From: Doris montereyensis
Taxonomy: Eukaryota; Mollusca; Gastropoda; Nudibranchia; Dorididae
Direction of reading: 5' to 3'
Length of the DNA stretch: 64,000 bases
Assembly: GCA_037039925.1 (NCBI GenBank)
Contig: JAXRKP010000680.1
Coordinates: forward strand, 1 to 64,000
In this document: positions 1 through 63,852 of the stretch, one piece after another
Layout of the letters: the number at the start of each line of letters is the position of its first letter
Position numbering within the stretch: the stretch's first letter is position 1
Made by a program: the position numbers and the translations under genes
The notes under the pieces: model-generated
Told to the model about the DNA's origin: nothing
Database searches by the model: none
The model's input: only the letters and a program-made list of their open reading frames with translations

Positions 1-290
1 ATTTGATAAATCAATTGATGAATTGAGTTATCTAGTTATGTAGATCATCAGATTGTCTAGTCGATAAATCAATTGATGAATTGAGTTACCTAGTTATGAA
101 GATCATCAGATGGTCTATTCGATAAATCAATTGATGAATTGAGTGATCTAGTTATGTAGATCATCAGATGGTCTATTCGATAAATCAATTGATGAATTGA
201 GTGATCTAGTTATGTAGATCATCAGATGGCCTATTTGATAAATCAATTGATGAATTGAGTTATCTAGTTATGTAGATCATCAGGGATGAA
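1..290. repeat. 58-bp tandem repeat, about 5 copies
   Basis: Successive copies of a unit beginning TCGATAAATCAATTGATG recur with a 58-base period (starts near 61, 119 and 177). Copies differ at only a few bases. The array runs off the left edge of the window, so its true length is unknown. Confidence 0.9.
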
Positions 291-589
291 AATGTCGCGG
301 CCATTACGTCATTGCAGGCGGTCAAAGATACAACTGTGGAAATACGTACTTCTTTTGAGAGCTCCAGTGAAAGTTTTCCCTCATGTACCCACCCCCATCT
401 GTTTTGTTTTTCATTCCCTTTAGGTAGCAATATAAAAAACAACAACACAAGGTTACAATTCAATCATCTTCATCTTGCTGTTTTTGCCTTCTAGCTTCTA
501 GCTGCAAGGAGCTATTTGGGATGTTTTCAGGGCTATTCTCAAAGAACAAACTGACAGATCACGTACATAAATATAATTATGCCCATGGA

Positions 590-1240
590 AACAGGCAATA
601 CGCATAACACATCATGTATACGTTCACTTGGAATCAGGCAATACGCATCACGCATCATGTATACGTTCACTTGGAATCAGGCAATATGCATAACGCATCA
701 TGTATACGTTCACATAGAATCGAACTTGTCATAGCATCATGTATCGTTCATAGAATCAGGCAGCCCCACATAACGCATCATGCATGCGTTACGCGAATCA
801 GGCAATACGCATAACATATCATGTATACGTTCACATGGAATGGAACATCGCGCAACATATCATGTATCTCGTTCACAAAGAATCGGAGACATCGTAACAT
901 ATCATGTATACGTTCATAACATATCATGTATACGTTCACATGGAAACAGGCAATATGCATAACATATCATGTATGCGTTCACATGGAAACAGGCAATACG
1001 CATAACATATCATGTATACGTTCACATGGAAACAGGCAATATGCATAACACATCATGTATACGTTCACTTGGAATCAGGCAATCGCATAACTCATCATGT
1101 ATACGTTCACATGGAATCAGGCAATATGCATCACACATCATGTATACATTCACTTGGAATCCGGCAATACGCATGACTCATCATGTCATACGTTCACATG
1201 GAATCAGGCAATACGCATCACGCGTGACTCATCGATATCA
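590..1240. repeat. ~42-bp minisatellite, about 15 copies
   Basis: The core CATCATGTATACGTTCAC is repeated every 40-43 bases, joined by a variable 'GGAATCAGGCAATACGCATAAC' type linker. Copies are diverged and differ by small indels. Open frames across it are by-products of the repeat and are not genes. Confidence 0.9.
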
Positions 1241-1319
1241 TCACGTATCACGCATGAGGGACACATAGAAACGTACCCTTAGGCCTTTGAGTTTCATTGA
1301 CCTTAAACAGAGCAACAAT

Positions 1320-1920
1320 GTGTTTTCTTTCTTTCTTGATCGTTTCCCATTCTACCTTGCGGTGTATGGGTTTTAGATGCCCAAAATGATCTTTCTCCAT
1401 GCTGCCCTGTCATGACATTTTCTGTTTCCTTCGGTGAAAGTTAAATTTCTTTGCGTTTATGCGTCTTTTATATCTTCTTCCCACTTTCTCCGAGGTTTGC
1501 CTTTTGGTCTTTTACATTGAATTTTACCACTGTATACTGAATTAGGTATTCTATTGTCATACATTGTGTTAACATGCCCAAACCATCTCAGGTTGATTTT
1601 ATGCTATCTGCTTTGATTCGATCTTTTATTGCTGTGTTTCTGATTTTGTCTCTTTTAGTTTTCCCTACTACTCTTCCTAGATATTTCATTTCGGCTGCCT
1701 GTATTCTACTGTATTCCCTACTATCTAAGGTCAAGGTTTCACTGTCATAGAGGAGAGTAGGACAATAAACTGTGTTGCATACTGCCATTTTGGTTTTCGT
1801 TGACTATTCTTGTTCACCTACAAATGCCTTTCCCAGATGGTTATATATTGCCCTTGCCTTTTGGATTCTCTGGCTGATTTCTTCTCTTAGTTTTCCCTCT
1901 GGGTTAATCATTACTGATCA
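1320..1920 (-). mobile_element. Non-LTR retrotransposon 3' end (LINE fragment)
   Basis: The minus strand encodes the region downstream of a reverse transcriptase, with motifs NTVYCPTLLYDSETLTLD, IQAAEMKYL and KTKRDKIRNT. A closely similar copy with the same order of motifs lies at 49440-49990, and both copies share the same 3' boundary around a CTTTCTTT stretch. The coding frame is broken and only the last part of the element remains. Confidence 0.8.
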
Positions 1921-2068
1921 GATCAAATAAAATAAAATAAAATAAAATAAAATAAAATAAAATAAAATAATATAAAATCAGATCAGGTCAAATAAAATAA
2001 AATAAAATAAAATAAAATAAAATAAAATAAAATAAAATAAAATAAAATAAAAAAAATAAAATAAAATT
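1921..2068. repeat. (AAAAT)n microsatellite
   Basis: Two blocks of pentamer AAAAT/AAATA are split by a short ATCAGATCAGGTC interruption. The array directly abuts the 5' side of the LINE fragment at 1320-1920. Confidence 0.95.
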
Positions 2069-2539
2069 CAAATGCTTTTCCGGTCACTGATTTTTAAAAG
2101 CCCGAGAACCTCAATTTTATAATATTTACACGATGTCAAATTTTAGAACATAAGGATTGTGTTGAAGTTAGTCACAGTTCTTATTGTATTCGATTACGGT
2201 TATGTATCACAATGCGTCATTATCACACCCCAAGAAAATTGTCAGCAAAAAGTTTTTTAATAATTGCTCAAAATGCAAACACCATAAGTGGACAAGAAAA
2301 TTAGTAGATAACTGAAAGATCAATACTGGGGTGAGGCAATGATGTATCTTTCCGCTCTTTTTGTTTCTTTTCTCCTTAGTAATTGACTGCATAATAGAAT
2401 AATCAATAGATATAAGATATATGCATGTGTGTGCGCGTGTGTGTGTGTATATATAAGAAAAATTCAGGCAAAAAGTAAGCATTTGCAGAGACCCTGGTGA
2501 ACTTTCATTTTGTGAGTAGCTTTAGATAGTAAGTATTTT

Positions 2540-3264
2540 ATTTTAAGTAAGTAAGTAAGCAAGTCAGTAAGTAAGTTAGCACGTGTGTAAGTAAATAAGT
2601 ACGTATGTAAATAAGTAAATAAGTAAGCAAGTAAGTAAGTAAGAAAAATAAGTAAGTAAGTAAGTAAGCAAGTCAGTAAGTAAGTAAGCACGTATGTAAG
2701 TAAATAAGTAAGTAAGTAAGTAAATAAGTAAGTAAGTAAGCACATATGTAAATAAGTAAATAAGTTTGTAAGCAAGTCAGTAAGTAAAAGTTGTACGTAT
2801 GTAAGTAAGTAAGTAAAGTATGTAAGTAAGTAATAAGTAAATAAATAAGGAAATAAATAAGTAAGTAAATAAGTAAGGAAATAAATAAGTAAATAAGTAA
2901 GGAAATAAATAAGTAAGTAAGTAAATAAGTAAGTATGTAAGTAAGTAAGTAAATAAGTAAGTAAGTATGTATGTAAATAAGTATGTAAATAAGTAAGTAA
3001 ATAAGTAAGTAAATAAGTATGTAAATAAGTAAGTAAATAAGTAAGTAAATAAGTATGTAAATAAGTATGTAAAAAGTAAGTAAATAAGTAAGTAAGTAAA
3101 TAAGTACGTAAGTACGTATGTAAGTAAGTAAAAAAAATAAGTAAGTAAGCACGTATGTAAGTAAATAAGTACGTAGTAAGTAAGTAAGTAAGTAAGTAAG
3201 TATGTATGTAAGTAAGTAAGTAAGTAAGTAGGTGCGTGTGTAAGTATGTAAGTAAGTAAGCAAA

Positions 3265-3299
<35 letters not shown>

Positions 3300-3300
3300 T
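2540..3300. repeat. (TAAG)n tetranucleotide array, ~760 bp
   Basis: GTAA/TAAG tetramers fill about 760 bases, with interspersed variants (AAATAAG, GTATGTAA, GCACGTATG) and a terminal (AAGC)n block at 3262-3298. Read on the minus strand the array gives Leu-Thr-Tyr-rich open frames of about 200-300 codons in all three frames, which is a composition artefact. Confidence 0.95.
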
Positions 3301-3850
3301 CACGTGTAAGAAAGTCGAAAAGAACGAACAAAACGGGGAAAATGACACTAACATATTCTGTTTTGCGATGGAAAAAAACCCAAAATCCTTTCATGTAACA
3401 AAATTGGTCAAAATATTGAGAAACAATCTTGAAAGTTTAAATAGTCGATTAAAATGAAAAGGCAAAGACTTGTTTTGTTAGTTTGTTTTGTTCGTTTGTT
3501 TGTTTGTTTGTTTGAAGTAACTCTGGCGGTGATCTCTGGGTTTGTAACTGACAAAAATTACTAATAAGCATGTTACACCCCAGATCACAAACAAGTGATT
3601 ATTATATCCGGTCAGTATTCATTAGGTAGGTGTGAACTATTCCATCGTTTATTAACTTTTAAATCACAAAACCTGTTCAAAACGGTATCTTAGGTGTATG
3701 AACATTCTACTCAAAAAAGGGGAAAACAATGCAATTTTCATTACATCACTTCTGGTAGAAACTTCTACAAGTGAAAACAATCTGGGAAATATGGTTACTC
3801 CTAGTGGATTGGCACCACAGACTTCGGTGAATAAAGAACGACCAACTCAG
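3300..3850. other. Non-repetitive spacer, no gene recognised
   Basis: Between the TAAG array and an AT tract there is unique AT-rich sequence with a short (TTTG)n at 3476-3515. I see no conserved coding motif, RNA gene or transposon end. Confidence 0.5.

Positions 3851-3853
<3 letters not shown>

Positions 3854-3937
<84 letters not shown>
3854..3937. repeat. (AT)n dinucleotide tract
   Basis: About 42 uninterrupted TA/AT units. Confidence 0.97.
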
Positions 3938-3939
<2 letters not shown>

Positions 3940-4129
3940 TGCCTGTGTGGGGATATAACTTTTTTTTTTTTTTTAAATCAACAATTCCCATAGATATTTG
4001 TTAATAGTAAAAAAGCGTCGATGTCTTAAAGATTTATTGCTACTAAGTACTCTAGACTAGTTATACAATTGAAGTTCTTGTACACATCCGAAATCAGTTT
4101 GTTGGATCAGTCTCTCGAAAGGGAATGTC

Positions 4130-4765
4130 GAAAGCACAAACAGACCAAAAACATCACAGCCCAAAGAAGGGACAAACGAACAAATCAAAACATTACAGCC
4201 CCAAGAAATGACAACACAAACAAACCAAAAACATCACAGCCCCAAAAGAAAGTACAACACCAACAAACCAAAAACATCACAGCCCAAAGAAAAGACAACA
4301 AAAACAAACCAAAAACATGACAGCTCAAAGAAAGGACAACACAAACAAACCAAAAACATCACAGCCCAAAGAAAGTACAACACAAACAAACCAAAAATAT
4401 CACAGCCCCAAAGAAAGGACAACAAAAACAAACCAAAAACATCACAGCCCCAAAGAAAGGACAACACAATCAAACCAAAAACATCACAGCCCAAAGAAAG
4501 AACAACACAAACAAACAAAAAACATCACAGCCCCAAAGAAAGGACAACACAAACAAACCAAAAACATCACAGCCCCAAGAGAGGACAACACAAACAAACC
4601 AAAAACATCACAGCCCCAAGAGAGGACAACACAAACAAACCAAAAACATCACAGCCCAAAGAAATTACAACAAAAACAAACCAAAAACATCACAGCCCAA
4701 ACAGAGGACAACACAAACAAACAAAAAACATCACAGCCCAAAGAAAGGACAACAAAAACTCACGC
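4130..4765. repeat. ~41-bp minisatellite, about 15 copies
   Basis: The motif CCAAAAACATCACAGCCC recurs every 38-42 bases, joined by AAAGAAAGGACAACACAAACAAA-type linkers. Copies are highly similar. Lys/Gln/Asn/Thr-rich open frames over it are repeat artefacts. Confidence 0.93.
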
Positions 4766-4859
4766 AAGAATTGATATGGAAAAATTTCCTATCTAATCCA
4801 TATCGTCAGAAAGGAATCAATTTGCAAATCAAAAATAGGGTTAATTATTAATTACTGCC

Positions 4860-6535
4860 CATGGAGCTAATGTGTGATTGAGCTCACCCCGGTTTCTATA
4901 GCGCAAAATGAAACTTAGGAGGACACTACATAGTTGCAGACTCACTCCCAACCTGATACTGCTCTCATTTGCATCTAGATCAATTGGGGAAATGTGTGAT
5001 TATCTCCCATTTGCATCTAGATCAATTGGGGAAATGTGTGATTGTCTCTCCGTTTGCATCTAGATCAATTGGGGAAATGTGTGATTGTCTCCCCATTTGC
5101 ATCTAGATCAATTGGGGAAATGTGTGATTGTCTCTCCGTTTGCATCTAGATCAATTGGGGAAATGTGTGATTGTCTCCCCATTTGCATCTAGATCAATTG
5201 GGGAAATGTGTGATTATCTCCCCATTTGCATCTAGATCAATTGGGGAAATGTGTGATTGTCTCCCCCATTTGCATCTAGAGCAATTGGGGAAATGTGTGA
5301 TTGTCTCCCATTTGCATCTAGATCAATTGGGGAAATGTGGGATTGTCTCTCCGTTTGCATCTAGATCAATTGGGGAAATGTGTGATTGTCTCCCATTTGC
5401 ATCTAGATCAATTGGGAAAATGCGTGATTGTCTCCCATTTGCATCTAGATCAATTGGGGAAATGTGTGATTATCTCCCGTTTGCATCTAGATCAATTGGG
5501 GAAATGTGTGGTTGTCTCTCCGTTTGCATCTAGATCAATTGGGGAAATGTGTGATTATCTGCCCATTTACATCTAGATCAATTGGTGAAATGTGTGGTTG
5601 TTCTCTCCGTTTGCATCTAGATCAATTGGGGAATGTGGATTATCTCCCCCATTTACATCTAGATAAATTGGGGAAATGTGTGGTTGTCTCCCCATTTGCA
5701 TCTAGATCAATTGGGGAAATGTAGTTGTCTCCTCCGTTTGCATCTAGATCAATTGGGGATATGTGTGATTATCTCCCCATTTACATCTAGATCAATTGGG
5801 GATATGTGTGGTTATCTCCCATTTGCATCTAGATCAATTGGGGAAATGTATGATTATCTGCCCATTTGCATCTAGATCAATTGGGGAAATGTGTGATTAA
5901 TTGTCTCACCACTTGCATCTGGATCAATTGGGGAAATATGTGATTAATTGTCTCCCGTTTGCATCGGATCAATTGAGGAAATATGTGATTAATTGTCTCC
6001 CGTTTGCATCTAGATCAATTGGGGAAATGTGTGGTTGTCTCCCCATTTGCATCTAGATCAATTGGGAAATGTGTGGTTGTCTCTCGTTTGCATCTAGATC
6101 AATTGGGAAATGTGTAGTTGTCTCTCCGTTTGCATCTATGGGATCAATTGGGGATATGTGGTTATCTCCCCATTTGCATCTAGATCAATTGGGGAAATGT
6201 GTGATTATCTGCCCATTTCCATCTAGATCAATTGGGGAAATGTGTGATTAATTGTCTCACCACTTGCATCTGGATCAATTGAGGAAATATGTGATTAATT
6301 GTCTCCCCGTTTGCATCGGATCAATTGAGGAAATATGATTAATTGTCTCCCGTTTGCATCGGATCAATTGAGGAAATATGTGATTAATTGTCTCCCCATT
6401 TGTATCTGTATCAATTGGGGAAATGTGTCATTAATTGTCTTTCCCAAGCAAATAGCTTGGATCTAGCTTTGCCAGGATCCGAACCCAGACCTCATGATCC
6501 CAAGTCTAGCCACCGACACCACCTTCACATGAATC
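4860..6535 (-). mobile_element. SINE-A copy expanded internally into a minisatellite
   Basis: Read on the minus strand, a tRNA-like SINE head lies at about 6535-6440 (GATCATGAGGTCTGGGTTCG, a B-box-like GGGTTCGGATCC, then CTTGGGAAAGACA). The SINE tail lies at about 4975-4860 (GCAAATGAGAGCAGTATCAG, GTTGGGAGTGAG, then TAGAAACCGGGGTGAGCTC). The intact order can be seen in the copies at 36635-36945 and 60733-61030. Between head and tail, one ~42-bp internal SINE segment has been multiplied about 34 times. The whole is one insertion with an internal satellite. Confidence 0.8.
4975..6440. repeat. ~42-bp minisatellite (SINE-A internal segment), ~34 copies
   Basis: The unit is CATTTGCATCTAGATCAATT + GGGGAAATGTGTGATTGTCTCC. 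Its reverse complement matches the SINE-A segment that reads ATCACGCATTTCTCCCGCTC followed by AACCCGGATGCAAACGGG. Units near 6245-6440 (ATCGGATCAATTGAGGAAATATG) are a different, longer variant than the homogenised bulk, which suggests growth mainly away from the SINE head. Confidence 0.9.
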
Positions 6536-6627
6536 GAATGAACAATAACTTTGTTTGAGGCAAATAGCCAAACATACCGATGGGAGAAACCCTTCTTGTG
6601 AAGAACTAATGAGAGTTGACTTGGTAG

Positions 6628-6770
6628 TTAAATTGAATTTACCACGTCCACCGTTGTGGTGATCTCAGAGTGAATTAAGAGGAAACAACAAGATGAAATA
6701 AGAAGTGAAAGTAAAGAGAAAGAAGTAAGATCTACCAGTAGGTCCTGCCAACACTCCGCACTAATCAGGG
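6628..6770 (-). mobile_element. R1 short interspersed element
   Basis: The plus strand reads GAATTTACCACGTCCACCGT, GATCTCAGAGTGAATTAAGA, GGAAACAACAAGATGAAA, then AAGAAGTAAGATCTACCAG. This order recurs about sixteen times in the window. Minus is assigned as the sense strand because the TGGGTAAAT end is shared with the 3' end of SINE-B. Confidence 0.75.
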
Positions 6771-6834
6771 AGGAAATCTTTGGGAGAGAAGGAAGTTGTC
6801 TTGCATAGGACAAAGATCGATTCTGAGCTCTAAG

Positions 6835-8070
6835 AATATCATAGCATTGACAAAAAAAGTATCATAGCATTGACAAAAAAGAATATCATAAAGTATTGAA
6901 AAAAAGAATATCATAGCATTGACAAAAAGAATATCATAGCATCGACAAAAAAGAATATCATAGCGTTGACAAAAAAGAATATCATAGCATTGACAAAAAA
7001 GAATATAGCATTGACATGGCATTGACAAAAGAATATCATAGCATTGACAAAAAAGAATATCATAGCATTGACAAAAAAGAATATCATAGCATTGACAAAA
7101 AAGAATATCATAGCATTGACAAAAAAGAATATCATAGTATTGACAAAAAAGAATATCATAGCATTGACAAGAAAGAATATCATAGCATTGATTGAAAAAA
7201 AGAATATCATAGCATTGACAAGAAGAATATCATAAAGATTGACAAAAAGAATACCATAGCATTGACAAAAAAAGAATACCATAGCATTGACAAAAAAGAA
7301 TAAAAAGAATATCATAGCATTGACAAAAAAGAATATTATAGCATTGACAAAAAAGAATATTATAGCATTGACAAAAAAGAATATCATAGCATTGACAAAA
7401 AAGAATATTATAACATTGACAAAAAAGAATATCATAGCATTGACAAAAAAGAATATTATTAAGCATTGACAAAAAAGAATATCATAGCATTGACAAGAAG
7501 ACAAAAAAGAATATCATAGCATTGACAAGAAGACTATTATAGCATTGACAAAAAGATAATATCATATCATAGCATTGACAAGAAGAATATTATATATTAT
7601 AACATTGACAAAAAGAATATTTCATTGACAAAAAGAATATCATAGCAGAATATATAATATTGACAAAAAGATATCATAGCATTGACAAAAAAATATCATA
7701 GCATTGACAAGAAGAATATTATAACATTGACAAAAAAAATATCATAGCATTGACAAAAAGAATATTATTTCATTGACAAAAGAATATTATAGCATTGACA
7801 AAAAAATATCATAACATTGACAAAAAGAATATCATAGCATTGACAAAAAGAATATCATAGCATTGACAAAAAAGAATATCATAGCATTGACAAGAAGAAT
7901 ATTAAAAGTAACAAAAAAGAATATCATAAGCATTGACAAAAAGAACATCATAGCATTGACAAAAAGAAAATAACATTGACAAAAAACATCATAACATTGA
8001 CAAAAAGAACATCATAATTGACAAAAAGAATATCACATTGTAAAAGAACATCATAGCATTGAAAAAAATA
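6835..8070. repeat. ~24-bp minisatellite, about 50 copies
   Basis: The unit GAATATCATAGCATTGACAA plus an A-run repeats every 22-25 bases. It is regular from 6900 to 7500, then increasingly degenerate towards 8070. Ile/Phe/Cys-rich minus-strand frames and Lys/Asn-rich plus-strand frames across it are artefacts. Confidence 0.95.
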
Positions 8071-8295
8071 ACAGATTTAAAACAACGTAAAACAAAAAAC
8101 AAAACACACAGTAAAAGTTTAAATAAGAAAAAGATATAAATTTTAATAACGTAATGATTAAATGAAAAATGTGAAAGTTAACAGAGAGGATTGGGAAGCG
8201 AATATGTGGGAAGACAACTTTTGTAAAGACAACATTACGTAACACTGAGTGATTCAAAGCAATGAAAAGTTAATGAACGCTTGTTTAATTTGTTA

Positions 8296-8505
8296 AAGTG
8301 AAATTTACCCCGTCCAATATTTGCGGTGATCTCATGGAGACATCTCATGAATTAAGAAGAAACAACAAGATGAAAAAGATAAGTGTAAAAGTGAAAAAGG
8401 AAAGAAGTACGGCCACCATTATCCCAGCCGTCCTCGGGCCCCAGCCGCCTTCGCCCCAGCCGCCCCGCCCCCAGCCGCCCCCGCCCCAGCCGCCCACGTT
8501 AATGA
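8296..8505 (-). mobile_element. R1 element with GC-rich internal mini-expansion
   Basis: The copy has the R1 core (AAATTTACCCCGTCC, GAATTAAGAAGAAACAACAA, GTGAAAAAGGAAAGAAGTA). At 8425-8500 the 'accagc-cgccc' part is multiplied into CCAGCCGCC-CCGCCC units, which makes an isolated GC-rich block in an AT-rich neighbourhood. Confidence 0.7.
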
Positions 8506-8539
8506 ACGCAAAACAAGTTAAAAGATAGAGCCTGAAGTA

Positions 8540-9760
8540 TGTTGTCTTTATTTTTTCATCTCATCCATTTGAATTGAAATGGAGATGGGTTGATGCATAC
8601 CTGCTACTAACGATAGTTAAACGTTTTCACAGCTTCAATAAAATTATAAAGAATAATGTTTTTAATTTGTGACCGCCTCCATTTTCGTAATAATGAACCA
8701 TAGGTTATGATAACATTGGAGGAACACAACAATCTGAGCAGGGAAGCGTTCAATCACCAAGAGACCGCCCTGCGTTTTTAATAATCTTATTGGTGATTAT
8801 TTTGAGGTCCTAGATTTTCATCCAATCAGAATGCTAGAATGCAAGATAGCGCTACAGTCACAGGCCGTATCGCAACTGAACGCAGCCCTGTGATACACAA
8901 CGTTTTGTTATCAGCTCAGTGTTCTCATTATAACGAATATCTTATTATTTTTAATGCTACCCGTATAGGGAATTAAACTGTTGGGTGAGCCAACAGTAAT
9001 AATAATATAAGATAGTACATGTATACAGTTTTCTATACTGCGGCTTGCTCGCTTGACTAAATATCAATGTCAAAATAGATATTATTATTAGTTTAAAGAG
9101 TAGAATTTTTCAATGAACTGACCCTGAAACCAAGAAACATAATGCGTTTAGTGAGATTACATTTCAACGCTCTAAAAAGCGGGCATGTTCAGACAGGCTC
9201 GTTCACTCTCAAGCTCCTGAATACAAATCATGTTCTTTTCATCGACAATGGAATCACAAGGGTCGTAAATTCACTTTGGTTAGTTTTGAGAAAATCGCTG
9301 TTTAAAGATTACAAAATAGAACTTGCCTTTGCACATACAGCCTTGTACACGACTAAAATGAGCCAAGCTAGGGGAGGTCAATGACTTTTGATTCGTTGTT
9401 TGAAGGGAAAACATAACGATATACAATATAAATCCCTGATGTGTTTATTTGATTTTAAAAAACATCAATTGTACTTACGATTCTGTCGTTCTTGGTCAGC
9501 AAGCGTAGCCGTTATCGTGGAGCCATTTTTTTTCATATCTTAGAAAACGTCACCACAATGGCATGAATCATTCCTCAGTGAAAGAGTAAGACATGTAGTA
9601 ACAATAGGGTACCCAAAGAGTCAATAAAATAGCGCGACCTCTCTTCATCTCAGGACACACACTTGCTCAACGCCCCACAGAAGTTGTGATTGCTTGCAAG
9701 TACTTTACCTTAAAAGTAAGCGTGTGTAGTCTAAATAAGGTCTCTCTGCTTTGAGCTAGA
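8540..9760. other. Unique sequence, no gene recognised
   Basis: This is about 1.2 kb without tandem structure. An 80-codon plus-strand open frame (9142-9384) has no recognisable motif, and I see no splice context to support it. Confidence 0.4.
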
Positions 9761-9769
9761 GTCATTAAT

Positions 9770-9870
9770 TCAATTCAGTTCAATTCAATTCAAATGCTTT
9801 ATTGCATCCCAGAGGGACATTTGTCTTAAATACGTATCAGTGTGAATAAAAGTATAGGTAAGTAAATTGT
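9770..9870 (-). mobile_element. Probable retroelement 3' tail with (TTGAA)n
   Basis: On the minus strand this reads GGGATGCAATAAAGCATTTG followed by AATTGAATTGAACTG, an AATAAA next to a short pentamer tail. That is typical of a LINE or SINE 3' end. It lies immediately beside the 68-bp array. Confidence 0.45.
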
Positions 9871-9877
9871 GTATAAT

Positions 9878-10680
9878 ATGGACATAGACATTAAACGTTT
9901 TCATGCACACAGCATATAGAATGATATCTAAACATTGTGTATAATATGGACATAGACATTAAACGTTTTCATGCACACAGCATATAGAATGATATCTAAA
10001 CATTGTGTATAATATGGACATAGACTTTAAACGTTTTCATGCACACAGCATATAGAATGATATCTAAAAATTGTGTATAATATGGACATAGACATTAAAC
10101 ATTTTCATGCACACAGCATATAGAATGATATCTAAACATTGTGTATAATATGGACATAGACATTAAACATTTTCATGCACACAGCATATAGAATGATATC
10201 TAAACATTGTGTATAATATGGACATAGACATTAAACATTTTCATGCACACAGCATATAGAATGATATCTAAACATTGTGTATAATATGGACAAAGACATT
10301 AAACGTTTTCATGCACACAGCATATAGAATGATATCTAAACATTGTGTATAATATGGACAAAGACATTAAACATTTTCATGCACACAGCATATAGAATAT
10401 TATCTAAACATTGTGTATAATATGGACATAGACATAAACGTTTTCATGCACATAGCATATAGAATGATATCTAAAAGTGTGTATAATATGGACATAGACA
10501 TAAACGTTTTCATGCACACAGCATAAATAATGATATCTAAAACTTGTGTATAATATGGGACATAGACATTAAACATTTTCATGCACACAGCATATAGAAT
10601 GATATCTAAACATTGTGTATAATATGGACATAGACATTAAACATTTTCATGCACACAGCATATAAATAATGATATTTAAA
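9878..10680. repeat. 68-bp minisatellite, about 12 copies
   Basis: The unit CATTGTGTATAATATGGACA + TAGACATTAAACRTTTTCAT + GCACACAGCATATAGAATGATATCTAAA repeats with a 68-base period (for example starts at 9933 and 10001). Divergence is low apart from single-base indels in the last copies. Confidence 0.95.
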
Positions 10681-10769
10681 AATTGCATTTAAAAGTAATG
10701 ACTTACCGTATCATAAATTCCAATATATTAAGATTGTATGGCAACTACATTTGTATTTTCTCTATAAGT

Positions 10770-10975
10770 CAGGGATTGTATAGTCTAGACACTGTCATGC
10801 CATTGCCTTGAACCAAATTGATTGAATGGCACTGCAACTACTTTTAAGCACGTTTGTATAGTCTGCACAGTGTCGTATTGCTTTGAACTAGACTCGTTGA
10901 GATGGCACAGCAACTGCTTTTAAGTAAGTTTGTATAGACTGCACAAAGCCATATTGCTTTGAATCAGACTGATAA
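10770..10975. repeat. Degenerate ~85-bp repeat, 3 copies
   Basis: Three diverged copies share TTTGTATAGTCTGCACAGTG / CATTGCTTTGAAC / GGCACAGCAACTGCTTTTAAG. They look older than the neighbouring arrays. Confidence 0.6.
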
Positions 10976-11139
10976 ATAATAGACACTATTTTATTTATAG
11001 AGGACCTTACCCTGTGCGAAACATGCTCAAAGATTAAGGATAAATACGGTATAAAAATGATAAAAATACGGTATAAAAATGTATACAGTGGCCACCATGC
11101 TATTACGTGACAACACGTTTACACAGTGCAATAAAAGTT

Positions 11140-11892
11140 TGTTATCACATGGTGAACAGAAAGGTCTCACTTGAGGTTTTGAAAAGTATATTATCACATG
11201 TTGAACAGAAAGGTCTTCACACGAGATTTTGAAAGTATATTATCACATGTTGAACAGAAAGGTCTTCACTTGAGGTTTTGAAAAAGCATATTATCACATG
11301 TTGAACAGAAAGGTCTTCACTTGAGGTTTTGAAAAGTATATTATCACATGTTGAACAGAAAGGTCTTCACTTTAGATTTAGAAAAAGTATATTATCACAT
11401 GTTGAACAGAAAGGTCTTCACTTTAGATTTAGAAAAAGTATATTATCACATGTTGAACAGAAAGGTTTTCACTTTAGATTTTGAAAAAGTATATTATCAC
11501 ATGTTGAACAGAAAGGTCTTCACACGAGATTTTGGAAAAGTATATTATCACATGTTGAACAGAAAGGTCTTCACACGAGATTTTGAAAGAGTATATTATC
11601 ACATGTTGAACAGAAAGGTCTTCACGAGATTTTGGAAAAGTATATTATCACATGTTGAACAGAAAGGTCTTCACACGAGATTTTGAAAGAGTATATTATC
11701 ACATGTTGAACAGAAAAGTCTTCACACGAGATTTTGAAAGAGTATATTATCACATGTAGAACAGAAAGGTCTTCACTTGAGATTTTGAAAGAGTATATTA
11801 TCATGTTGAACAGAAAGGTATTCACACGAGATTTTGAAAGAGTATATTATCACATGTTGAACAGAAAGGTCTTCACACGAGATTTTGAACCC
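11140..11892. repeat. ~51-bp minisatellite, about 15 copies
   Basis: The unit ATATTATCACATGTTGAACA + GAAAGGTCTTCAC + ACGAGATTTTGAAAGAGT recurs every 48-52 bases. Two sub-variants (TTTAGATTTAGAAA and ACGAGATTTTGAAA) occur in blocks, suggesting segmental amplification. Confidence 0.95.
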
Positions 11893-11919
11893 CTTTGTTT
11901 TATGTGTACGGACTAACTG

Positions 11920-12410
11920 TGTACCGCGCGATGTGTGAACAGATTACATGGAAACTTAACTGAGTGTATCCACGTGTCCCTGATGGGCTGTATGCGATGT
12001 GTGAACAGATTACATGGAAACTTAACTGAGGTGTATCCACGTGTTCCTGATGGGCTGTACGCGATGTGTGAACAGATTACATGGAAACTTAACTGAGGTG
12101 TATCCACGTGTCCCTGATGGGCTGCAGGGATGTGTGAACAGATTACATGGAAACTTAACTGAGGTGTATCCACGTGTCCCTGATGGGCTGTTGTGCGATG
12201 TGTGAACAGATTACATGGAAACTTAACTGAGGTGTATCCACGCGTCCCTGATGGGCTGTATGCGATGTGTGAACAGATTACATGGAAACTTAACTGAGGT
12301 GTATCCACGTGTCCCTGATGGGCTATATGCGATGTGTGAGCAGATTACATGGAAACTTAACTGAGGTGTATCCACGTGTCCGTGATGGGCTGTACGCGAT
12401 GCGTGATACG
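11920..12410. repeat. 67-bp minisatellite, about 7 copies
   Basis: The unit GCGATGTGTGAACAGATTAC + ATGGAAACTTAACTGAGGTG + TATCCACGTGTCCCTGATGGGCTGTA repeats every 67 bases (11994, 12061 and so on) with few mismatches. It begins 30 bases after the preceding 51-bp array ends. Confidence 0.95.
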
Positions 12411-12544
12411 CCTTAGTTAAATTTCCATATAATCGTTGTTTACGCATCACGCATCACACGTCACGCATTACATGGATGCACGGAAACTGGGCTTCACTCA
12501 ATCAATCATTGGCGCCAAACGGAGAGTAGTGCATCTGGTGGGTT

Positions 12545-12677
12545 GTCTATGAATGTCTATCAATGTCTATCAATGTCTATCAATGTCTATCAATGTCTAT
12601 CAATGTCTATGAATGTCTATCAATGTCTATCAATGTCTATCAATGTCTATCAATGTCTATCAATGTCTATCAATGTT
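12545..12677. repeat. 10-bp tandem repeat (TGTCTATCAA), ~13 copies
   Basis: Near-perfect decamer repeats. Two copies read TGTCTATGAA instead. Confidence 0.97.
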
Positions 12678-13045: not shown

Positions 13046-13137
13046 CAGTAAAATTGCAACTGGAGAGCAGAGGCGCGATAGACGCGAAAAGCCTTGGCTG
13101 TTTGCACGCGCGCGGGTCTCAATAGCAATTATCTTTA

Positions 13138-29900: not shown

Positions 29901-32900
29901 GGTTGCTAGGTCTGAAAAAGGAAATTGAACACATGAGAGGGCGGCGTATCAATATATGAAGCTACAAAGTTTGTTATCCACAAATCTATTATGACATCAG
30001 CTCAGAACTTTATTGTTCTTACCACACACAAACTCGTTTTGAAAAGGTAAAAAAGCTTTAAAGTTTTCAGCTGGAAAGATAGTACAGAGTCAGGACAAAA
30101 ACTGTGAGTGAAAATTGTGACAAACGCAGACCAAATTTAGTTGCAATCATCTGTGAGACAGGACAATTGCCAAGCGGAAATATGATGATGATCATAACTC
30201 AAAAATCATCAAAGGGATAGTTAGGACAACGTAAATCATCAGAATCGCGATAAGTTTATAAAAGGCAACATGATTCTTAACCCTCGAATCGCCAACAATA
30301 ACGTCCCAGAATGTCAGGGCAAAATTCCATGTTTTAGCAGGGTCGAGAAAATCAATTATCATAAGTCTTTTATTATTTGAAATAGCATGGGGAAAAGGTA
30401 TACAATTTTTGAAAAGGTGAATAAAACAGGGAATCTCCAGACAAAAAATGATATGTTGATATGGCCTTGACATTAGACATAATTGGCCTTGACCTTGAAA
30501 ATCATGCAGTTTAACCTCAGATTTCATAACTCAGAGAGGTCAAATAAAAAAATCTGAAACAGTCAAAATGTAGCCCATTCATCTGATTTGAATCCCTAAT
30601 ACCTAAAAAAAGAAGCTCCTTCAAGGCCAGTGCGGCCCACAGAGCCGGAGTGTATCCCGGTTTCTGTAGCGTGAAGTAAAACAGGTGATAATTATCACCT
30701 CCTGGACAGGGACGCTAATCTGACACAGATCTTTACTCCCAAGCTAGTGCTTGTACCCATTTGCACATGGAGAAAAGGTGTGCAGTGTCTACCTCTAATA
30801 CCAACCCAAAGCAAAAACTAACAGACAGTCGAAAATGAAAAATTAACATTGCAAACTAGAATGATGTTAGAATGGCTTTTTTGTTAGTTTAATTGAAATT
30901 TACCCAATCCACCGTTGTGGTGATCTCAGGGCGAATTAAGAGTAATCAGTAAGATAAAAGAGAAGTAAAAAGGAAAGAAGTACGACCTACCAGCACCGGC
31001 CGCCGCCCACCCGCGTGAGAATGGCACGTGACCATCGGTTTATGACAAATATAACAAGAAATCCAACAGTTTCAAGGTGTCTGTAAGTCTTGAAAACAAA
31101 AATAAAAAATAAAACATTAGAAGATGTACATTCTGAGGACTGTAAGCAGGCTTGTAGTCCCCTCTGGCAGTAAAATTGATGGAAGAGTGAGCCGCGGCCT
31201 TCAGTGGTGTCACATTGGCCTAGAGAGCAGTCAAATAGGATTTGAACCTAGGTGTAGATCTAGTATCGTGTCCTTGATCGTCTCAACTCACACTACTTTC
31301 ACTTTTTAAGTCATCACTAACTTGAGGAATTTCCTCAAAAAAAAAGAAAACTGTTTTTTACTGTTTCATTTAAATTTACTCGTCCACCGTTGCGGTGATC
31401 TCAGAGTGAATTAAGAGAAAACAGCAAGATGAAAGATAAGTGAAAGAAGGAAAGAAAAAAATATATACGACCTTTGACCTACCAGCAGCATCCGCCAACC
31501 AATCGCTCAAAAATGAAGAGAGAAAAAAAAAGAACAGAGAGTTGTACATCTGGAGACCGAGAAAGGAGAGAGCAAAAGAAAGAGGCGCATCACATTCACA
31601 GACTTATTGTAGTCGTCTTAACACTGAATCAAAGGTCAGTCCCACCTTTGCTGTATATGGCCGAGATGACAACATCTGCCTGTATAGTGTCTGACTCCGT
31701 CTTGACCTGAACAAAATAGAGACAAGGAAGAGAAATGGATTTCAAAGAAACAGAACAGTGCCGTAGCAATGCATGAAAGCCTATCAAAGTAGTAAGAACA
31801 AGCGTGTACATTCCAAGCTATGGTCAAGACGAAACTATTAACTCTATGCTAGTTAATTAATTCCTAATTGTTAAGTTCCTTCCTCTACGGCTCTTCTCAC
31901 TTTCTTTCGAAGCATTTCATAGACTGGAAAGTAAAATGACGACATTTGTTTACAGCGGGACGCTCACCAAGACCTTCCCATCATCCTTTGGGGTGATGGC
32001 CGTGACAGGGGAATTCAGTCTGATTTCGGCACCTTTAGAGTTCGTCACAGCTCCTGCCATTGTGTCGGTCAGCTGCTGCAAACCTTTCCGCAAAGACCAA
32101 GTCGCCCACTTCTCCTGCTTTGCCCTCTTTATCACTCCTGTCAGTTCTTCCTCGGGGCTAGGACGAAATGCAAAATAAACCGATAAGATAACATTAAGAT
32201 TTTACTGAGGTGATGAATAAGAACATGAAATATCATAAAAAAATCCCACAGGAACAGACAAGACAAATACAGAGGAGATCGCACTACCAACCAAGCGAAC
32301 TATGATACGCTTAGTTAGCTCAGTTCGTAGCGTGCTCTCTTGTCATGGCGAGGTGAAGAGTGGCAGCTCAGAGGCCGTGGGTTCGATTCTGTTGACTTCC
32401 AAGATTTTTTTCTTCTGTCTATTCCTCTGTATTTGTCCCGTCTTTGTTCCTACAACAATTTAATATAATTTCATGTTCCTATTCCTCACCTTCGACATGC
32501 CCCTTGCCTCACTGTTTGTCTCAAGATATTTACAGAGTAAGACAAGACAGAATGAGACAAAATAATACGTCACTGGAAAACAGAACTTTGGATAAAATCC
32601 ATTAGAACGAGACACAATTGGACCAACAAAATAATAATTTATCAGCGTTTTTAAAAATTTATCCACACGATGACGCATAACAGTCATACTAATAAAATTC
32701 TAACAAATAGATACAAACTAATAACAAATGTATTAAACATGATTAACCAGCAGTCAAACAAACAGAGATAAAATTATTCTTGATCTGACTCTGACTTTGA
32801 TTTGATTTATCCACATCCACCACTAAGATGATCTCTGGGGTCTTGGTAGATTTTTTGTTGTTGCCCAGACTGCCTTGTAAACAACCAAGGGATCTTTAAT

Positions 32901-35900: not shown

Positions 35901-38784
35901 ATTTCAGAAATACATTCTGTTTTGTTCAATGAACAAGGATAAAGAATAAAAGATGGATTTATAGTCAGTATCCCCACACCAGTGTAGGCTCACCGACCGT
36001 ACATCGTTTATCCCCCAGTAGGTCATTTCATTCAAAGTCCTTCTCAACTTCCTGGGGAGCATACAGTATACCAGCCTGTTAGGGCTTTGTGCTAACACTC
36101 TGACAAGATATTTCTCTACCTATAGCTGGGCACACATTCACAACTGAGTCAAGGAGGAAAGAAGAGTGAAGCACCTTTCCTAAAAAGTACAACATTGGGG
36201 GGGGGAAACCTACCAGTGCCAGCCATAAGTTGGAACCAGTGTTGTTGTGATTACCAATCACAACACTACGGTTCAGCTACAACGCCTCATAAGCGGGTTA
36301 AAAGTTGGGGTTTTTTTCTTCCAAGTAAAATTTGACAAATAGTAGCCCTTTCAAAGGCTCTTTCGAGCTCAAACGACCCACGTCCATCTAGACTAGACAA
36401 ATCTCAAACTCTGAGATACATAATTATCATAGAGCTATAATATTATATTTTCCACATTTTTTTCCCAGTTTTGAGGACTGAGCTCATGACTGCTCGACTT
36501 TATTTTTGCAAAACGAACTGAGAACAAAAAACATTTCCGATACTGCAACTCAAGGGGCACCATCGAGATATAATAAACATGTGTGTGTCATTAAAATGAA
36601 GATTTGTAACCCATCTTACACAAGGTGTGGCGTCAATGATGGTCTAGTGGCTCAGACTTGGGGATAATGAGGTCCTGGGTTCGAATCCTAGTAAAGCTGG
36701 GTCCCACAATGTGTTCCCTGGGAACGACACATAACACGCATTTTCCCACTCGACCCAGGTGCAAATGAGTACAAGCCCTAGCTTGGGAGTAGTAAAAACC
36801 TGCGTCAGACTAGTGTCCTGTCCAGGATGTGATTATTATCACCTGTTTCGCTGTCGCTATAGAAGACGGATATGCTCCGGCTCTATAGGCTGTAATGGCC
36901 TTGGAGAAACATTACTTTATCATTACTTTAACGCAAGGTAACAGTACTTTATTTTGAACAAGTTTGTGATATAAATAAACAATACTGAGTACTATCCCTA
37001 AGGATAACTACAATACTATTCCTTATTTACCTCCCTTTTTAATAACCAAAGCAAGTCTCAAAAGAAGTAAATAGTACAGTTGGTTAGAGGCAGAGCCTTT
37101 CGTTTTGGAGCAAGCTTTACATTTATTTCCCTGGCACTTCTAATTCACAAACAATTACTTACAAGGCTGAGTGTGTTCTTTCCTGCTTCACCTACAGGCC
37201 GCAAACTCCGAGGCCCATGTTCAAATATTGCGCCATCTGGATTTATCGCTGAATTCACCCATCCACCAAGACAGAGGAACTCTCTAGTAATACAACCTGA
37301 TCAAAATTGATTAATTGAAAACATGATTAAATTATGAGACAGATAATCATGTATCAAAATTGATCAATTGAAAATGTAATTAAATCAACTTATTGAGACG
37401 GATAACTTATATCAAAATTGATCAATTGAAAACATGATTAAATTATGAGACAGATAATCATGTATCAAAATAGATCAATTGAAAACATGATTAAATTAAC
37501 TTTATTGAGACAGATAATCATGAAATATATTTTGACAGACTATGATATAAAGAAAGGAACATCTACCAAATTTTTGTAGAGATTCATTTAATATCATAAC
37601 GCTATGACAGGATGATTTCAACTCCATGATAAAGCAAAACCATGCACAATATATACATTGAATTAAAAATTGAACTTACCCCATCCACCATATATGGTGA
37701 TATCAGGGTAAATTAAGAGGAAACAACAAGATGAAATATATGTGAAGGAGTGATAGGAAAGAAGTAGGACCTACCAGAAGCACCAGCAAATTGCCAACAG
37801 AATTTGTTAGGTGTAAAAAGTACAAAACCCTTTGCATAACATGCATATGACACCAGTGTGCCAATGCAGAGAACCTTTAAAAGGTTAAAGTGGGCAGAGA
37901 AGAAACTTAACAAACTGCGTATTTGATTAAAACCCTTCAAAAGGAGACGAATGGAAACCAAAAATGATTATTTAAGATATCAAAGAATCACTTATATTTA
38001 AATAGCTTGTTTAATTCTTTATTGTTTAATTGAACTTCACCCTGTCCATCGGGATACGGGGATCTTTGGTGAATTAAGAGGAAACAACAACATAAAAGAA
38101 AAGTGAAAGTGAAAGAACGAAAGCAAAGAAGTAAAATCTGTCAGCAGTACCCGCCAGCTGCCTGCTATTTAAATAGCATGTTGATGGAAAACAATATGCC
38201 TTGATTAAAAGACTTTGCCTAAAATCAATTTGATAACTGTTGATTTTTAAATTCATTTTACATTTTTCAATCACTTTGCAGATATTGACCAATAGTACAA
38301 AACACATATGAAAGATTTGTTCCCATTACAAATACAGTTATGATCGAAACAAACCAACAACAGAAATACAAACTCCATCACCATCCCCACCCGTCTTGTT
38401 GAGACACATCACCTCTTAAAAAACAATTTTTAAAAGAGCAAAACCAACAATCCCCAAAGCATCCAATCAAGTCACAGCATTAGTGTTAAAAGTATGGACA
38501 GAAACAGCAATTTAAGTAACGATGGTTGATATGTAAAAACGCTATTGTCCTAACAAAGAAAATCGCTCTTCTTCAACATTATAACAAAGCTAATAAATTA
38601 TAAAGCATTTATATCAGACACCGATAACACTAAGCAATAATTCAGGATGCCTATCAGTTCTTTTCTCTCCTTTGTAATAGATCACCTAAAACATACCTTC
38701 TGAATTTTTGGCAAATGTCTTAAAACGTAGAAGGCAGAAGCTAATCTGGCTGACACCTCCTCCAATCACGACAGCTGTTGCCAT
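26024..38784 (-). CDS. PPOX: Protoporphyrinogen oxidase, 11 exons, several frame breaks
   Basis: FAD enzyme of the mitochondrial inner membrane that oxidises protoporphyrinogen IX to protoporphyrin IX before ferrochelatase. Eleven exons (38697-38784, 37163-37296, 35643-35750, 34855-34991, 33450-33597, 31968-32157, 31646-31706, 29792-29911, 28890-29006, 27420-27571, 26024-26205) total 1437 nt, about 478 codons, matching the roughly 477 residues of the animal enzyme. Landmarks are the N-terminal FAD loop [82 protein letters not shown], and the C-terminal [14 protein letters not shown]. All ten introns start GT and end AG. Single-base frame breaks occur in exons 1, 2, 3, 4 (two), 8, 10 and 11, and probably at the start of 6. 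Conserved residues are otherwise kept, so I favour consensus errors over a pseudogene. Introns are full of R1, SINE and LINE copies. Confidence 0.92.
26435..26715. repeat. 23-bp minisatellite in the last PPOX intron, ~12 copies
   Basis: TCTGAAATTTCACCCTGGTT + TAA units, with variants CATCCTAG and CCTCTAG. Confidence 0.95.
26936..26968. repeat. (GT)n microsatellite
   Basis: About 16 GT units in PPOX intron 10. Confidence 0.95.
27420..27571 (-). CDS. PPOX: PPOX exon 10
   Basis: Acceptor GAACTTGCAG. Encodes [38 protein letters not shown], and after a missing base near 27453-27458 [10 protein letters not shown]. Donor AAG|GTACGT. 152 nt, where 153 would fit phases 0/0. Confidence 0.92.
27708..27790 (-). 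mobile_element. R1 element, partial
   Basis: GAAATTTACCCCATCCGTCA, TGTGATCTCAGCGTGAATTA, AAACAACAAGATGAAAGATA. It lies in PPOX intron 9, next to a GATTGATTGATT tail. Confidence 0.75.
28020..28270 (+). mobile_element. SINE-C (tRNA-headed)
   Basis: A tRNA-like head (CTACCAGTAGAGCGTCCAAT…GAGTTCGATTCCCAGTCCGG) is followed by a body containing GGTGGAGTGGAAAGCAATGG and CAAACTACCGCATTATGCCG. The same body reappears at 61805-61925, which supports a dispersed family. Confidence 0.65.
28300..28420. repeat. 45-bp tandem duplication, 2.5 copies
   Basis: AAGTGCCCACTCTCTAAGAA + CTCAAACGCCCCATGCC repeated. Confidence 0.85.
28890..29006 (-). CDS. PPOX: PPOX exon 9
   Basis: Acceptor TTTCCGTTCCAG. Encodes [20 protein letters not shown] followed by [19 protein letters not shown]. 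Donor ACA|GTAATT. 117 nt, intact, phases 0/0. Confidence 0.95.
29076..29152 (-). repeat. Partial duplicate of PPOX exon 8 end and its donor
   Basis: This 77-base segment matches 29750-29827 with two or three differences. It includes the last ~36 coding bases of exon 8 ([10 protein letters not shown]) and the GTATAG donor. It lies about 70 bases from the exon 9 acceptor. Together with the matching segment it brackets about 600 bases containing an R1 fragment and a LINE tail. Confidence 0.85.
29233..29295 (-). mobile_element. R1 fragment
   Basis: GTTTACCCATCCCCACATTC, TAATCTCAGGGTGAATTCAG, AGGAAAAGGCAAAATGAAAA. Confidence 0.6.
29300..29710 (-). mobile_element. LINE 3' fragment (RT C-terminus)
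   Basis: The minus strand encodes [31 protein letters not shown], and [15 protein letters not shown] with SFREK. This is the usual C-terminal pattern of non-LTR elements ('L…LHWLPL..RR…K…K..H', then 'RTI..WN.LP…SFK'). A (GAA)n tail lies at 29308-29325. Confidence 0.7.
29792..29911 (-). CDS. PPOX: PPOX exon 8
   Basis: Acceptor CTTTTTCAG. Encodes [37 protein letters not shown] and, after one surplus C in the C4 run at 29798-29801, VK. Donor AAA|GTATAG. Its last 36 nt and donor are repeated at 29076-29152, where the run has three C and the frame is open. Confidence 0.88.
30000..30600. other. PPOX intron 7 sequence, nothing recognised
   Basis: A 111-codon minus-strand open frame (30192-30527) shows no conserved motif and is probably chance. 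Confidence 0.4.
30620..30785 (-). mobile_element. SINE-A body fragment
   Basis: CACAGAGCCGGAGTGTATCC, CGGTTTCTGTAGCGTGAAGT, ACCTCCTGGACAGGGACGCT and CTCCCAAGCTAGTGCTTGTA match the inverse of the SINE-A body at 36770-36910 and 60870-61000. The head is missing. Confidence 0.75.
30890..31015 (-). mobile_element. R1 element
   Basis: GAAATTTACCCAATCCACCG, TGGTGATCTCAGGGCGAATT, AAGGAAAGAAGTACGACCTA, CCAGCACCGGCCGCCGCCCA. Nearly full length. Confidence 0.8.
31365..31505 (-). mobile_element. R1 element
   Basis: AATTTACTCGTCCACCGTTG, CGGTGATCTCAGAGTGAATT, AGAGAAAACAGCAAGATGAA, then GACCTACCAGCAGCATCCGC. Confidence 0.8.
31646..31706 (-). CDS. PPOX: PPOX exon 7 (61 nt)
   Basis: Acceptor TTTTGTTCAG. 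Encodes [20 protein letters not shown], matching the 'A-D-x-V-I-S-A-I' strand of the FAD domain. Donor G|GTGGGA. Phases fit both neighbours. Confidence 0.9.
31968..32157 (-). CDS. PPOX: PPOX exon 6
   Basis: Acceptor TCGTCCTAG. Encodes [37 protein letters not shown] and [10 protein letters not shown]. Donor TTG|GTGAGC. The phase does not match exon 5 unless the opening C4 run is one base short or an acceptor 10 bases downstream is used. Confidence 0.92.
32310..32405 (+). mobile_element. tRNA-like SINE head
   Basis: The A-box-like TTAGCTCAGTTCGTAGCGTG and B-box-like GGGTTCGATTC are 50 bases apart, and the sequence is followed by a T-rich body. The spacing and lack of a closed acceptor stem argue against a functional tRNA. 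Confidence 0.5.
32805..33107 (-). mobile_element. SINE-B, near full length
   Basis: The inverse order runs from the 3' tail (TTTGATTTATCCACATCCAC, AAGATGATCTCTGGGG) through the middle (CAACCAAGGGATCTTTAATG, GTCCGTCTCCAATGGGACTA) to the tRNA-like head (GGGGTTTGAACTCACAACCT, GAGAGGCCGATACCTTGCCT). A C14 run follows it. Confidence 0.85.
33450..33597 (-). CDS. PPOX: PPOX exon 5
   Basis: Acceptor ATGTTGCCAG. Encodes [20 protein letters not shown] followed by [20 protein letters not shown] and VIGALFGPK. This is the most strongly conserved PPOX block (CRG.FAG..R.LS…CFP). Donor C|GTAAGT. No internal break. Confidence 0.95.
33798..33965 (-). mobile_element. R1 element
   Basis: ACTATAACCCCATTCATCAT, GATCCCGGGGTAAGTTAAGA, GGAAGGAAAGAAGTAGGATC, TGCCAACTATCCACACAAGC. 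Confidence 0.75.
34023..34150 (-). mobile_element. R1 element
   Basis: AAAATTTACCCCATCCACCA, GATCTCAAGGTGATTTAAGA, GGAAATAGGAAGATGAAAGA, GGACCTACTAGAAGTACCTA. Confidence 0.8.
34640..34775. repeat. ~56-bp tandem duplication
   Basis: AAAGCGGCCTCTTAGGCATG + GTAATTAAGGAAGGAAAATC occurs twice in PPOX intron 4. Confidence 0.85.
34855..34991 (-). CDS. PPOX: PPOX exon 4, two frame breaks
   Basis: Acceptor TTCACCAG. Encodes LSGMLKTIP, then (after a one-base deficit in the C4 run at 34962-34965) PFSKPLA, and after a second shift near 34903-34908 [16 protein letters not shown]. The two shifts cancel, so the exon length keeps phase. Donor GAG|GTATAG. Confidence 0.85.
35643..35750 (-). CDS. PPOX: PPOX exon 3
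   Basis: Acceptor TTGTGTCCAG. Encodes [20 protein letters not shown] and [14 protein letters not shown]. Donor GTAAGG. A base is missing near 35648 in the 'ALPS' codons, which also explains the phase mismatch with exon 4. Confidence 0.88.
35950..36130 (-). mobile_element. SINE-D fragment
   Basis: The inverse complement (ATGCTCCCCAGGAAGTTGAG, GACTTTGAATGAAATGACCT, ACTGGGGGATAAACGATGTA, GACTATAAATCCATC) matches 55105-55195 on the plus strand. Two dispersed copies define the family. Confidence 0.65.
36635..36945 (+). mobile_element. SINE-A, near full length
   Basis: A tRNA-like head (GGTCTAGTGGCTCAGACTTG, GAGGTCCTGGGTTCGAATCC) is followed by a body (CACATAACACGCATTTTCCC, GCAAATGAGTACAAGCCCTA, GACTAGTGTCCTGTCCAGG) and an end (ATGCTCCGGCTCTATAGGCT). 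This copy shows the single-copy arrangement of the segment that is amplified at 4975-6440. Confidence 0.85.
37163..37296 (-). CDS. PPOX: PPOX exon 2
   Basis: Acceptor TTTGATCAG. Encodes VVLLESSS, then [20 protein letters not shown] and [16 protein letters not shown]. Donor CTT|GTAAGT. One base is missing near 37270 (134 nt instead of 135). Confidence 0.9.
37300..37535. repeat. ~55-bp repeat, 4 copies, in PPOX intron 1
   Basis: AATTGATCAATTGAAAACAT + GATTAAATTATGAGACAGAT + AATCATGTATCAAA repeated. Internal palindromes centre on TTGATCAA. Confidence 0.9.
37670..37795 (-). mobile_element. R1 element
   Basis: AACTTACCCCATCCACCATA, GATATCAGGGTAAATTAAGA, GGAAAGAAGTAGGACCTACC, AGAAGCACCAGCAAATTGCC. 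Confidence 0.8.
38027..38165 (-). mobile_element. R1 element
   Basis: GAACTTCACCCTGTCCATCG, GATCTTTGGTGAATTAAGAG, GAAGTAAAATCTGTCAGCAG, TACCCGCCAGCTGCCTGC. Confidence 0.78.
38697..38784 (-). CDS. PPOX: PPOX exon 1 (FAD-binding loop)
   Basis: The ATG is at 38784-38782. It encodes [12 protein letters not shown] and then, after one surplus base near 38746-38752, [16 protein letters not shown]. The expected dinucleotide-binding GGGxSG loop spans the break. Donor AAG|GTATGT. Length is 88 nt, where 87 would keep phase. A TTCAACAG 33 bases 5' of a CAAAATGG context hints at a 5'UTR intron. Confidence 0.85.
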
Positions 38785-43204: not shown

Positions 43205-43450
43205 TGTGGTGGAGTGGCCCAATGGTAAGTCTGTCAGTGTCAGACTTTAGTCCTGAGTTTGGAACCAAGCAATGCGAAGACACTCGAAACGCATTTCCTC
43301 ACCAGGTGCATAATGATGTGTATCAGTATTGAATCAGGACTAAAACTGCTGTACATTAGTGTCCTGTCAAGGAGGCGATTGATCACCTCCTGTTCTGCTT
43401 TAATGCACAGAAACCAGGATGATCTCCGGCTCCATGGCCCTAATGACTAT
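43205..43450 (+). mobile_element. SINE-A copy, diverged
   Basis: GTGGAGTGGCCCAATGGTAA, GTCCTGAGTTTGGAACCAAG, ACGCATTTCCTCACCAGGTG, AGTGTCCTGTCAAGGAGGCG, GATCTCCGGCTCCATGGCCC: the SINE-A order is preserved. Confidence 0.7.

Positions 43451-46922: not shown

Positions 46923-63852
<16,930 letters not shown>

Follow-up and report, generated by a model that had tools for sequence, protein, structure and literature searches.

A SINE copy with a multiplied internal segment

Judged from its sequence, the locus at 6532-4854, on the minus strand of the 64,000-nucleotide stretch of Doris montereyensis DNA analysed here (the window), is one SINE copy in which an internal segment has been multiplied while both ends have been kept. 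It is composed of a SINE head with Pol III box-like motifs (6447..6532, minus strand), recognised by a SINE HMM, a box scan and local alignment; a tandem array of 34 units of 41-48 bp (4968..6446, minus), each homologous to a SINE segment that is single elsewhere; and a SINE tail (4854..4967, minus), which is collinear with the other copies both by alignment and by the SINE HMM. The unit boundaries were obtained by a pattern-based split of the minus strand, proceeding from 6446 to 4968, and Tandem Repeats Finder places the array at 4966-6432, with a period of 43, 33.8 copies and 86% matches; the preliminary description of this DNA, which had reported a segment of about 42 bp present about 34 times, was accurate on this point. 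The count of 34 comes from one assembled sequence, and arrays of 1.5 kb are generally known to be error-prone in short-read assemblies; however, only three pairs of units are identical (6/21, 30/32 and 31/33) and the other units can be distinguished, so that wholesale false duplication is unlikely and there is little chance that the unit number is an assembly artefact.

The organisation of the locus is very probably the result of an in-place tandem duplication of the SINE segment, which followed insertion and decay of the element and was itself followed by expansion of the array. The SINE would have inserted and then decayed through point mutation; one internal segment of about 48 bp, located between head and tail, would have been duplicated tandemly in place; slippage or unequal exchange would have enlarged the array to 34 units; and recent homogenisation would have acted at the tail side. 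The locus offers an unusually complete snapshot, in which the two ends, units close to the ancestor, derived units and the traces of recent homogenisation are readable together; since all the stages can be read at one place, we infer the order of events, and likewise slippage or unequal exchange as the process.

The SINE family in the window

Two further copies of the SINE, A (36621..36915, plus strand; alignment, box scan and SINE HMM) and B (60733..61022, plus; alignment and SINE HMM), align with each other across almost their full length and contain a single segment of 47-48 bp. Copy D (43214..43439, plus; SINE HMM E 6.3e-17) is diverged and also has a single segment, while copy C (30615..30790, minus; E 3.4e-35) is 5'-truncated and starts inside the segment, with no extra unit upstream. 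The segment is single in all three window copies that fully span it (A, B and D), with a fourth, C, beginning within it; the copies at 36635 and 60733, previously described as having one segment, indeed have one unit each, and the same is true of the other spanning copy. A fragment consisting of the head only is found at 55276-55351 (E 1e-8), and weak HMM matches are present at 35413-35449 (E 0.022) and 36198-36099 (E 0.049). A diverged piece resembling the unit segment lies at 54996-55047, about 230 bp upstream of the head fragment and on the same strand; the two are possibly neighbouring fragments.

The head of the locus had been called tRNA-like. Its box B-like motif, GGTTCGGATCC, agrees with the consensus at 10 of 11 positions, and by the same consensus copies A, B and D reach 11/11, 8/11 and 7/11, respectively; a loose box A pattern is found at 11 of 12 positions in the locus head and in copies A, B and D. 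Pol III boxes A and B are thus present, but tRNA models do not match: ARAGORN finds no tRNA gene in the window, and Rfam gives no tRNA match at the gathering score, nor any with E of 1 or less in the three stretches that were compared. The only two matches to structured RNA in Rfam have E values of 0.41 and 0.5, far under the gathering scores. The putative tRNA-like character is that of the boxes only, and the SINE is not classed here as tRNA-derived. Its 3' half may resemble the V domain, the central domain common to fish and mollusc V-SINEs, such as that of mollusc RUDI; the SINE is not placed among them here.

Homology of the array to the SINE

An HMM built from copies A and B alone and run on the 64-kb window recognises both sides of the locus. 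At the head side it matches 6515-6391 (model 33-160, envelope 6532-6385, E 4.8e-16), a stretch that includes unit 1; at the tail side it matches 5000-4854 (model 119-283, E 3.2e-8), including 33 bases of unit 34. Since the matches include unit 1 and part of unit 34, homology to the SINE is unbroken through both array boundaries; moreover, the two matches are collinear, in agreement with the earlier observation that head and tail lie in the right order on the minus strand. At least 28 further stretches of the array match model positions 106-160, with E values from 3.3e-4 to 3.1 among the matches listed.

Pairwise alignment leads to the same arrangement. The head alone scores 110 and 85 against copies A and B, with maxima of 45 and 43 in 300 shuffles; the tail alone is weaker, with 44 and 52 (maxima of 300 shuffles, 41 and 39). 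The preliminary description had proposed an alignment of 4860-6535 (minus) to the SINE copies, and in this comparison the collapsed element, made of head, unit 1 and tail, scores 159 and 136, far above the maxima of 500 shuffles (51 and 46); the scores fall to 80 and 52 when head and tail are swapped.

As regards the units, the proposed match between their reverse complement and the SINE segment is confirmed by global alignment: all 34 units score 25-50 against the segment, while none of 60,491 control 43-mers, taken from both strands of the window and excluding the array and all identified SINE pieces, scores above 22, so that none reaches the worst unit and the segment is matched better than by random window sequence. 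The match is also specific for position, since the unit consensus, compared with the two copies at successive positions, gives 41 and 32 where the segment is expected and 2 or less at places more than 20 bases off. Comparisons based on the unit alone are weak: against the complete SINE copies, a pair of units from the middle of the array scores 37, with 36 for the best of 22 other arrays; a consensus dimer scores 46 and 44, the best among 3774 random 86-mers being 44; and when the masked window is searched with a unit HMM, the SINE segment at 36.7 kb ranks first, at E 0.21, and that at 60.8 kb ninth, at E 2. A two-unit query has no match with E of 0.05 or less elsewhere in the 64-kb window, its own SINE included.

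It can be asked whether head and tail are unrelated fragments around an independent satellite, which would resemble the SINE segment by chance. Unit-only similarity only marginally above controls, and the modest E value with which the unit HMM meets the SINE, would be expected in such a case. However, the position-specific match, the shared strand and register and the absence of any control reaching the units all speak against it; continuity through both boundaries, together with register, leads us to reject this origin, which is largely excluded and extremely improbable. The proposed origin from the SINE is a case built on position and order, strand, register and continuity, and not on unit similarity alone.

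Some features of the ends and of the units can be added. In the alignment of the tail to 120 bases of copy B, gaps account for 23 letters on the tail side and 13 on that of copy B. Sixteen of the 23 tail gap letters fall where the other copies hold the near-palindromic AGGAGGTG...ATCACCT, and close to the tail end there is an extra stretch with AATCACACATT, which belongs to 12 bp shared exactly with array units. A search for target site duplications around the element found none (best score 20, shuffle mean 21); the expanded copy is old, and possibly truncated at its 3' end. The motif ATGCAAAT, read in SINE orientation, occurs 14 times at 4968-6446 and 18 times window-wide on both strands, and is absent from all four other SINE copies; it corresponds to the octamer bound by POU factors, for which it would be a candidate site.

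History of the array

The units beside the head differ from the bulk, as had been noted. Units 1-5 (6216..6446, minus; unit split and alignment) keep an ATTAAT stretch, which is also kept in units 11-13, and measure 43-48 bp, four of the five being 46-48 bp, as compared with 42-44 bp in the last third of the array. Considering all units, 1, 2, 4, 5 and 11-13 are 45-48 bp long, near the 47-48 bp of the SINE, and the remaining ones are 41-44 bp. Units beside the head are also more diverged: mean pairwise identity rises from head to tail, from 0.819 (units 1-11) through 0.854 (units 12-22) to 0.943 (units 23-34), the last value defining a homogenised tail-side zone at 4968..5479 (minus). The identity of adjacent units increases toward the tail (Spearman 0.56, p 0.0007).

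These gradients of length and identity agree with the directional growth suggested in the preliminary description, which is nevertheless only part of the picture, since similarity of the units to the SINE has no significant gradient along the array (rho 0.24 and 0.23, p 0.17 and 0.19) and block copying is present. Simple monotone growth away from the SINE is rejected on the first of these grounds. As for the second, units 3-7 (6352-6129) resemble units 11-15 (6002-5780) at an offset of 8, as in a block duplication comprised within 5780..6352 (minus); the mean identity over the five units is 0.943, eighth among five-unit runs, and the seven runs ranked above it are within the homogenised zone or reach into it. 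The similarity of nearest neighbours exceeds that in all 2000 permutations, and the offsets that stand out are 2, 8 and 9, reached by 10, 15 and 4 of 2000 permutations, respectively; these signals fit alternating dimers at the tail end plus the copied block. Polarity of turnover is known from minisatellites, and here the latest turnover probably took place at the tail side, with block copying in addition.

The state of the element before expansion can be approached through the segment columns with the same base in copies A and B: 17 of them retain this base in 90% of units or more, and 16 are variable. Seven others have a different base that is nearly fixed across the array, in 31-34 of 34 units each; among these, columns 11 and 15 fall where gaps are frequent, so that their reading depends on the alignment. 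All seven changes are already found in unit 1, so that the SINE copy had probably decayed before the expansion, a later sweep of the changes being the other way to explain them.

The near-fixed changes also bear on whether a mobile source SINE already contained the array, the copy having inserted with many units in the manner of SVA and LAVA. In favour of this, SVA and LAVA, according to PMC4432496, are laid out in the same way, with the array placed between a head and a tail that are both kept. On the other hand, one segment is the most that any other copy in the window contains, and the array at the locus shows near-fixed changes of its own as well as local homogenisation. Moreover, two TTTT runs are present in SINE orientation, one of them within the array at 5420, and such runs tend to stop Pol III. 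Insertion of a ready-made array is therefore quite improbable, and the in-place expansion of a single segment remains preferred.

How the expansion started

Short direct repeats have been considered a start of tandem growth (Haber and Louis, as cited in PMC6947457 and PMC3389668). A candidate pair is found at the segment ends in copy B, GGGAAAGACAC / GGGCAGAAGCAC; as a seed this pair is weak at best, since 183 of 1017 copy-B pairs with a comparable spacing score as well or better, and in the three-copy consensus the pairs that equal or exceed it number 164 of 3791 with a window of 14, 242 of 3757 with one of 16 and 337 of 3723 with one of 18. For human TE-derived arrays, PMC3389668 gives flanking direct repeats in just 300 of 7276, so that their absence here is not unusual.

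A different trigger may be imagined in a palindrome. Point mutations, C to T included, would have made the SINE segment self-amplifying through the quasi-palindrome TTGATCTAGATGCAA, with hairpin-driven, runaway growth at the tail side. The core ATCTAGAT is present in 26 of the 34 units (it is absent from units 1-4, 7, 11, 12 and 27), is missing from SINE copies A and B and occurs 7 times in the window outside the locus. Through this palindrome, neighbouring units are predicted to pair into a long hairpin, with -13.2 kcal/mol and z -3.37 (dinucleotide shuffles) for units 31-32, while folding of a single unit gives z -0.96. Against a role of the palindrome, the energies of adjacent pairs in the array are spread between -4.7 and -17.7 kcal/mol, and -9.7 is reached when the copy A segment, which has no palindrome, is artificially dimerised. 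The hairpin energy of adjacent pairs strengthens toward the tail (rho -0.46, p 0.007, in an analysis that used single-letter shuffles), a trend that is confounded with position; the palindrome idea, moreover, arose after the fact, and it is unlikely to be correct. If it were true, then, together with the second repeat-seeded array described below, it would mean that the region routinely turns dispersed repeats into minisatellites. The locus raises the additional question of whether palindrome-forming mutations triggered growth.

Relation to known systems

The locus belongs with SINE-born minisatellites grown in place, of the Alu type; the process is already known and no new kind of element is involved, and the case supports the accepted idea that tandem repeats arise from dispersed ones, without changing it. 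Alu-derived human minisatellites were described by Jurka and Gentles (2006, as cited), and Ahmed and Liang (2012; PMC3389668) report 2663 minisatellites from Alu. According to the same source, AluJo positions 226-278 form an array of 17 x 52 bp, whose growth after insertion was argued from other primates, and the Alu cases have on average 2.3-2.4 units. As at the present locus, a SINE segment is repeated in place in these Alu minisatellites; the locus differs in that it involves an unrelated SINE family and has 34 units. The preliminary description had considered an expansion of this kind unusual, which was overstated, since internal SINE expansions such as the AluJo array are documented in PMC3389668; at the same time, no published report of this very case was found in the literature searched.

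Other systems share part of these features. The mouse B1-derived VNTR family (Bois et al. 1998, as listed in PMC9659126) has likewise grown from a SINE, with a unit (GGCAGA)n, as against 41-48 bp at the locus. PcH-sat of the limpet Patella caerulea is, like the array described here, an invertebrate tandem repeat that contains part of a SINE, the SINE2/tRNA element Nin-SINE; it is described in PMC11121367 as having a 179-bp monomer, as accounting for about 10% of the genome, as mainly pericentromeric and as being without box A and box B, whereas the present array is found at one place in the window and its SINE ends are kept. SVA and LAVA resemble the locus more closely in structure, with units of 30-50 bp between non-repeated ends, a non-random unit order and DNA-level remodelling; however, according to PMC4432496, their arrays are mobile with the element, and within the window there is no sign of a mobile array at the locus. 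Sequence patterns of the window gave no match in the collections viral_contigs and genome_contigs, nor did SINE copy A among phages, results that are little informative since the content of those collections is described as viral or prokaryotic.

Regional setting and a second array

The SINE array lies in a region rich in tandem repeats. The Tandem Repeats Finder table, merged by hand, gives a tandem-repeat cover of 5209 of 8000 bp (65%) in the first 8 kb, 3476 bp (43%) in the second and 1613 bp (20%) in the third, and then of 338-925 bp (4-12%) in each of the following ones; positions 1-17100 are possibly an unstable region.

A second array, with 61-bp units, is found at 16323-17011 and is made of repeats of a dispersed element's own 3' segment. 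An HMM of this second dispersed family, built from six copies, identifies a copy at 16240-16382 (E 7.1e-16) that runs into the 61-bp array; the array corresponds to about positions 101-170 of the model, and seven of its stretches match alone, with E values of 1.6e-4 to 0.014. Here the array is placed at the 3' end of its element, and no tail is seen after it. The presence of two repeat-seeded arrays in one window suggests that it is the region, rather than the SINE, that is prone to growth.

It may then be that subtelomeric or otherwise unstable DNA drove the expansion and that the SINE was an incidental seed. The large share of tandem repeats in the first 8 kb and the second dispersed repeat, which likewise continues into tandem copies of its 3' segment, point in this direction; against it, tandem TTAGGG (two units or more, on either strand) is found nowhere in the window. 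Such a cause is plausible, though somewhat short of probable; it concerns what drove the growth, and is compatible with an in-place origin from the SINE. In its behaviour the array is most likely a neutral minisatellite, specific for this locus and lying in a region of unstable repeats.

Two-unit queries of 20 other arrays in the window gave no listed match (E up to 0.05) in a SINE copy, the listing covering five of the six matches of the array at 16829, by a test that is insensitive, as it also missed the own SINE of the 43-bp array. The second dispersed family occupies 13 places in the window at E 1.3e-15 or better, examples being 6609-6774, 30867-31029, 33998-34167, 37656-37813 and 58265-58108. 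Three other arrays, at 57989-58130, 8423-8495 and 6832-8068, begin directly at the 3' ends of copies of this family or no more than about 60 bases from them, which could be due to chance in a repeat-rich region or to a property of the 3' end of the family. Finally, the coding content makes an animal genome likely: an RT frame has a single relative with an organism in its source name, a pufferfish, and the open reading frames of the window contain RVT_1, zf-RVT and THAP domains.
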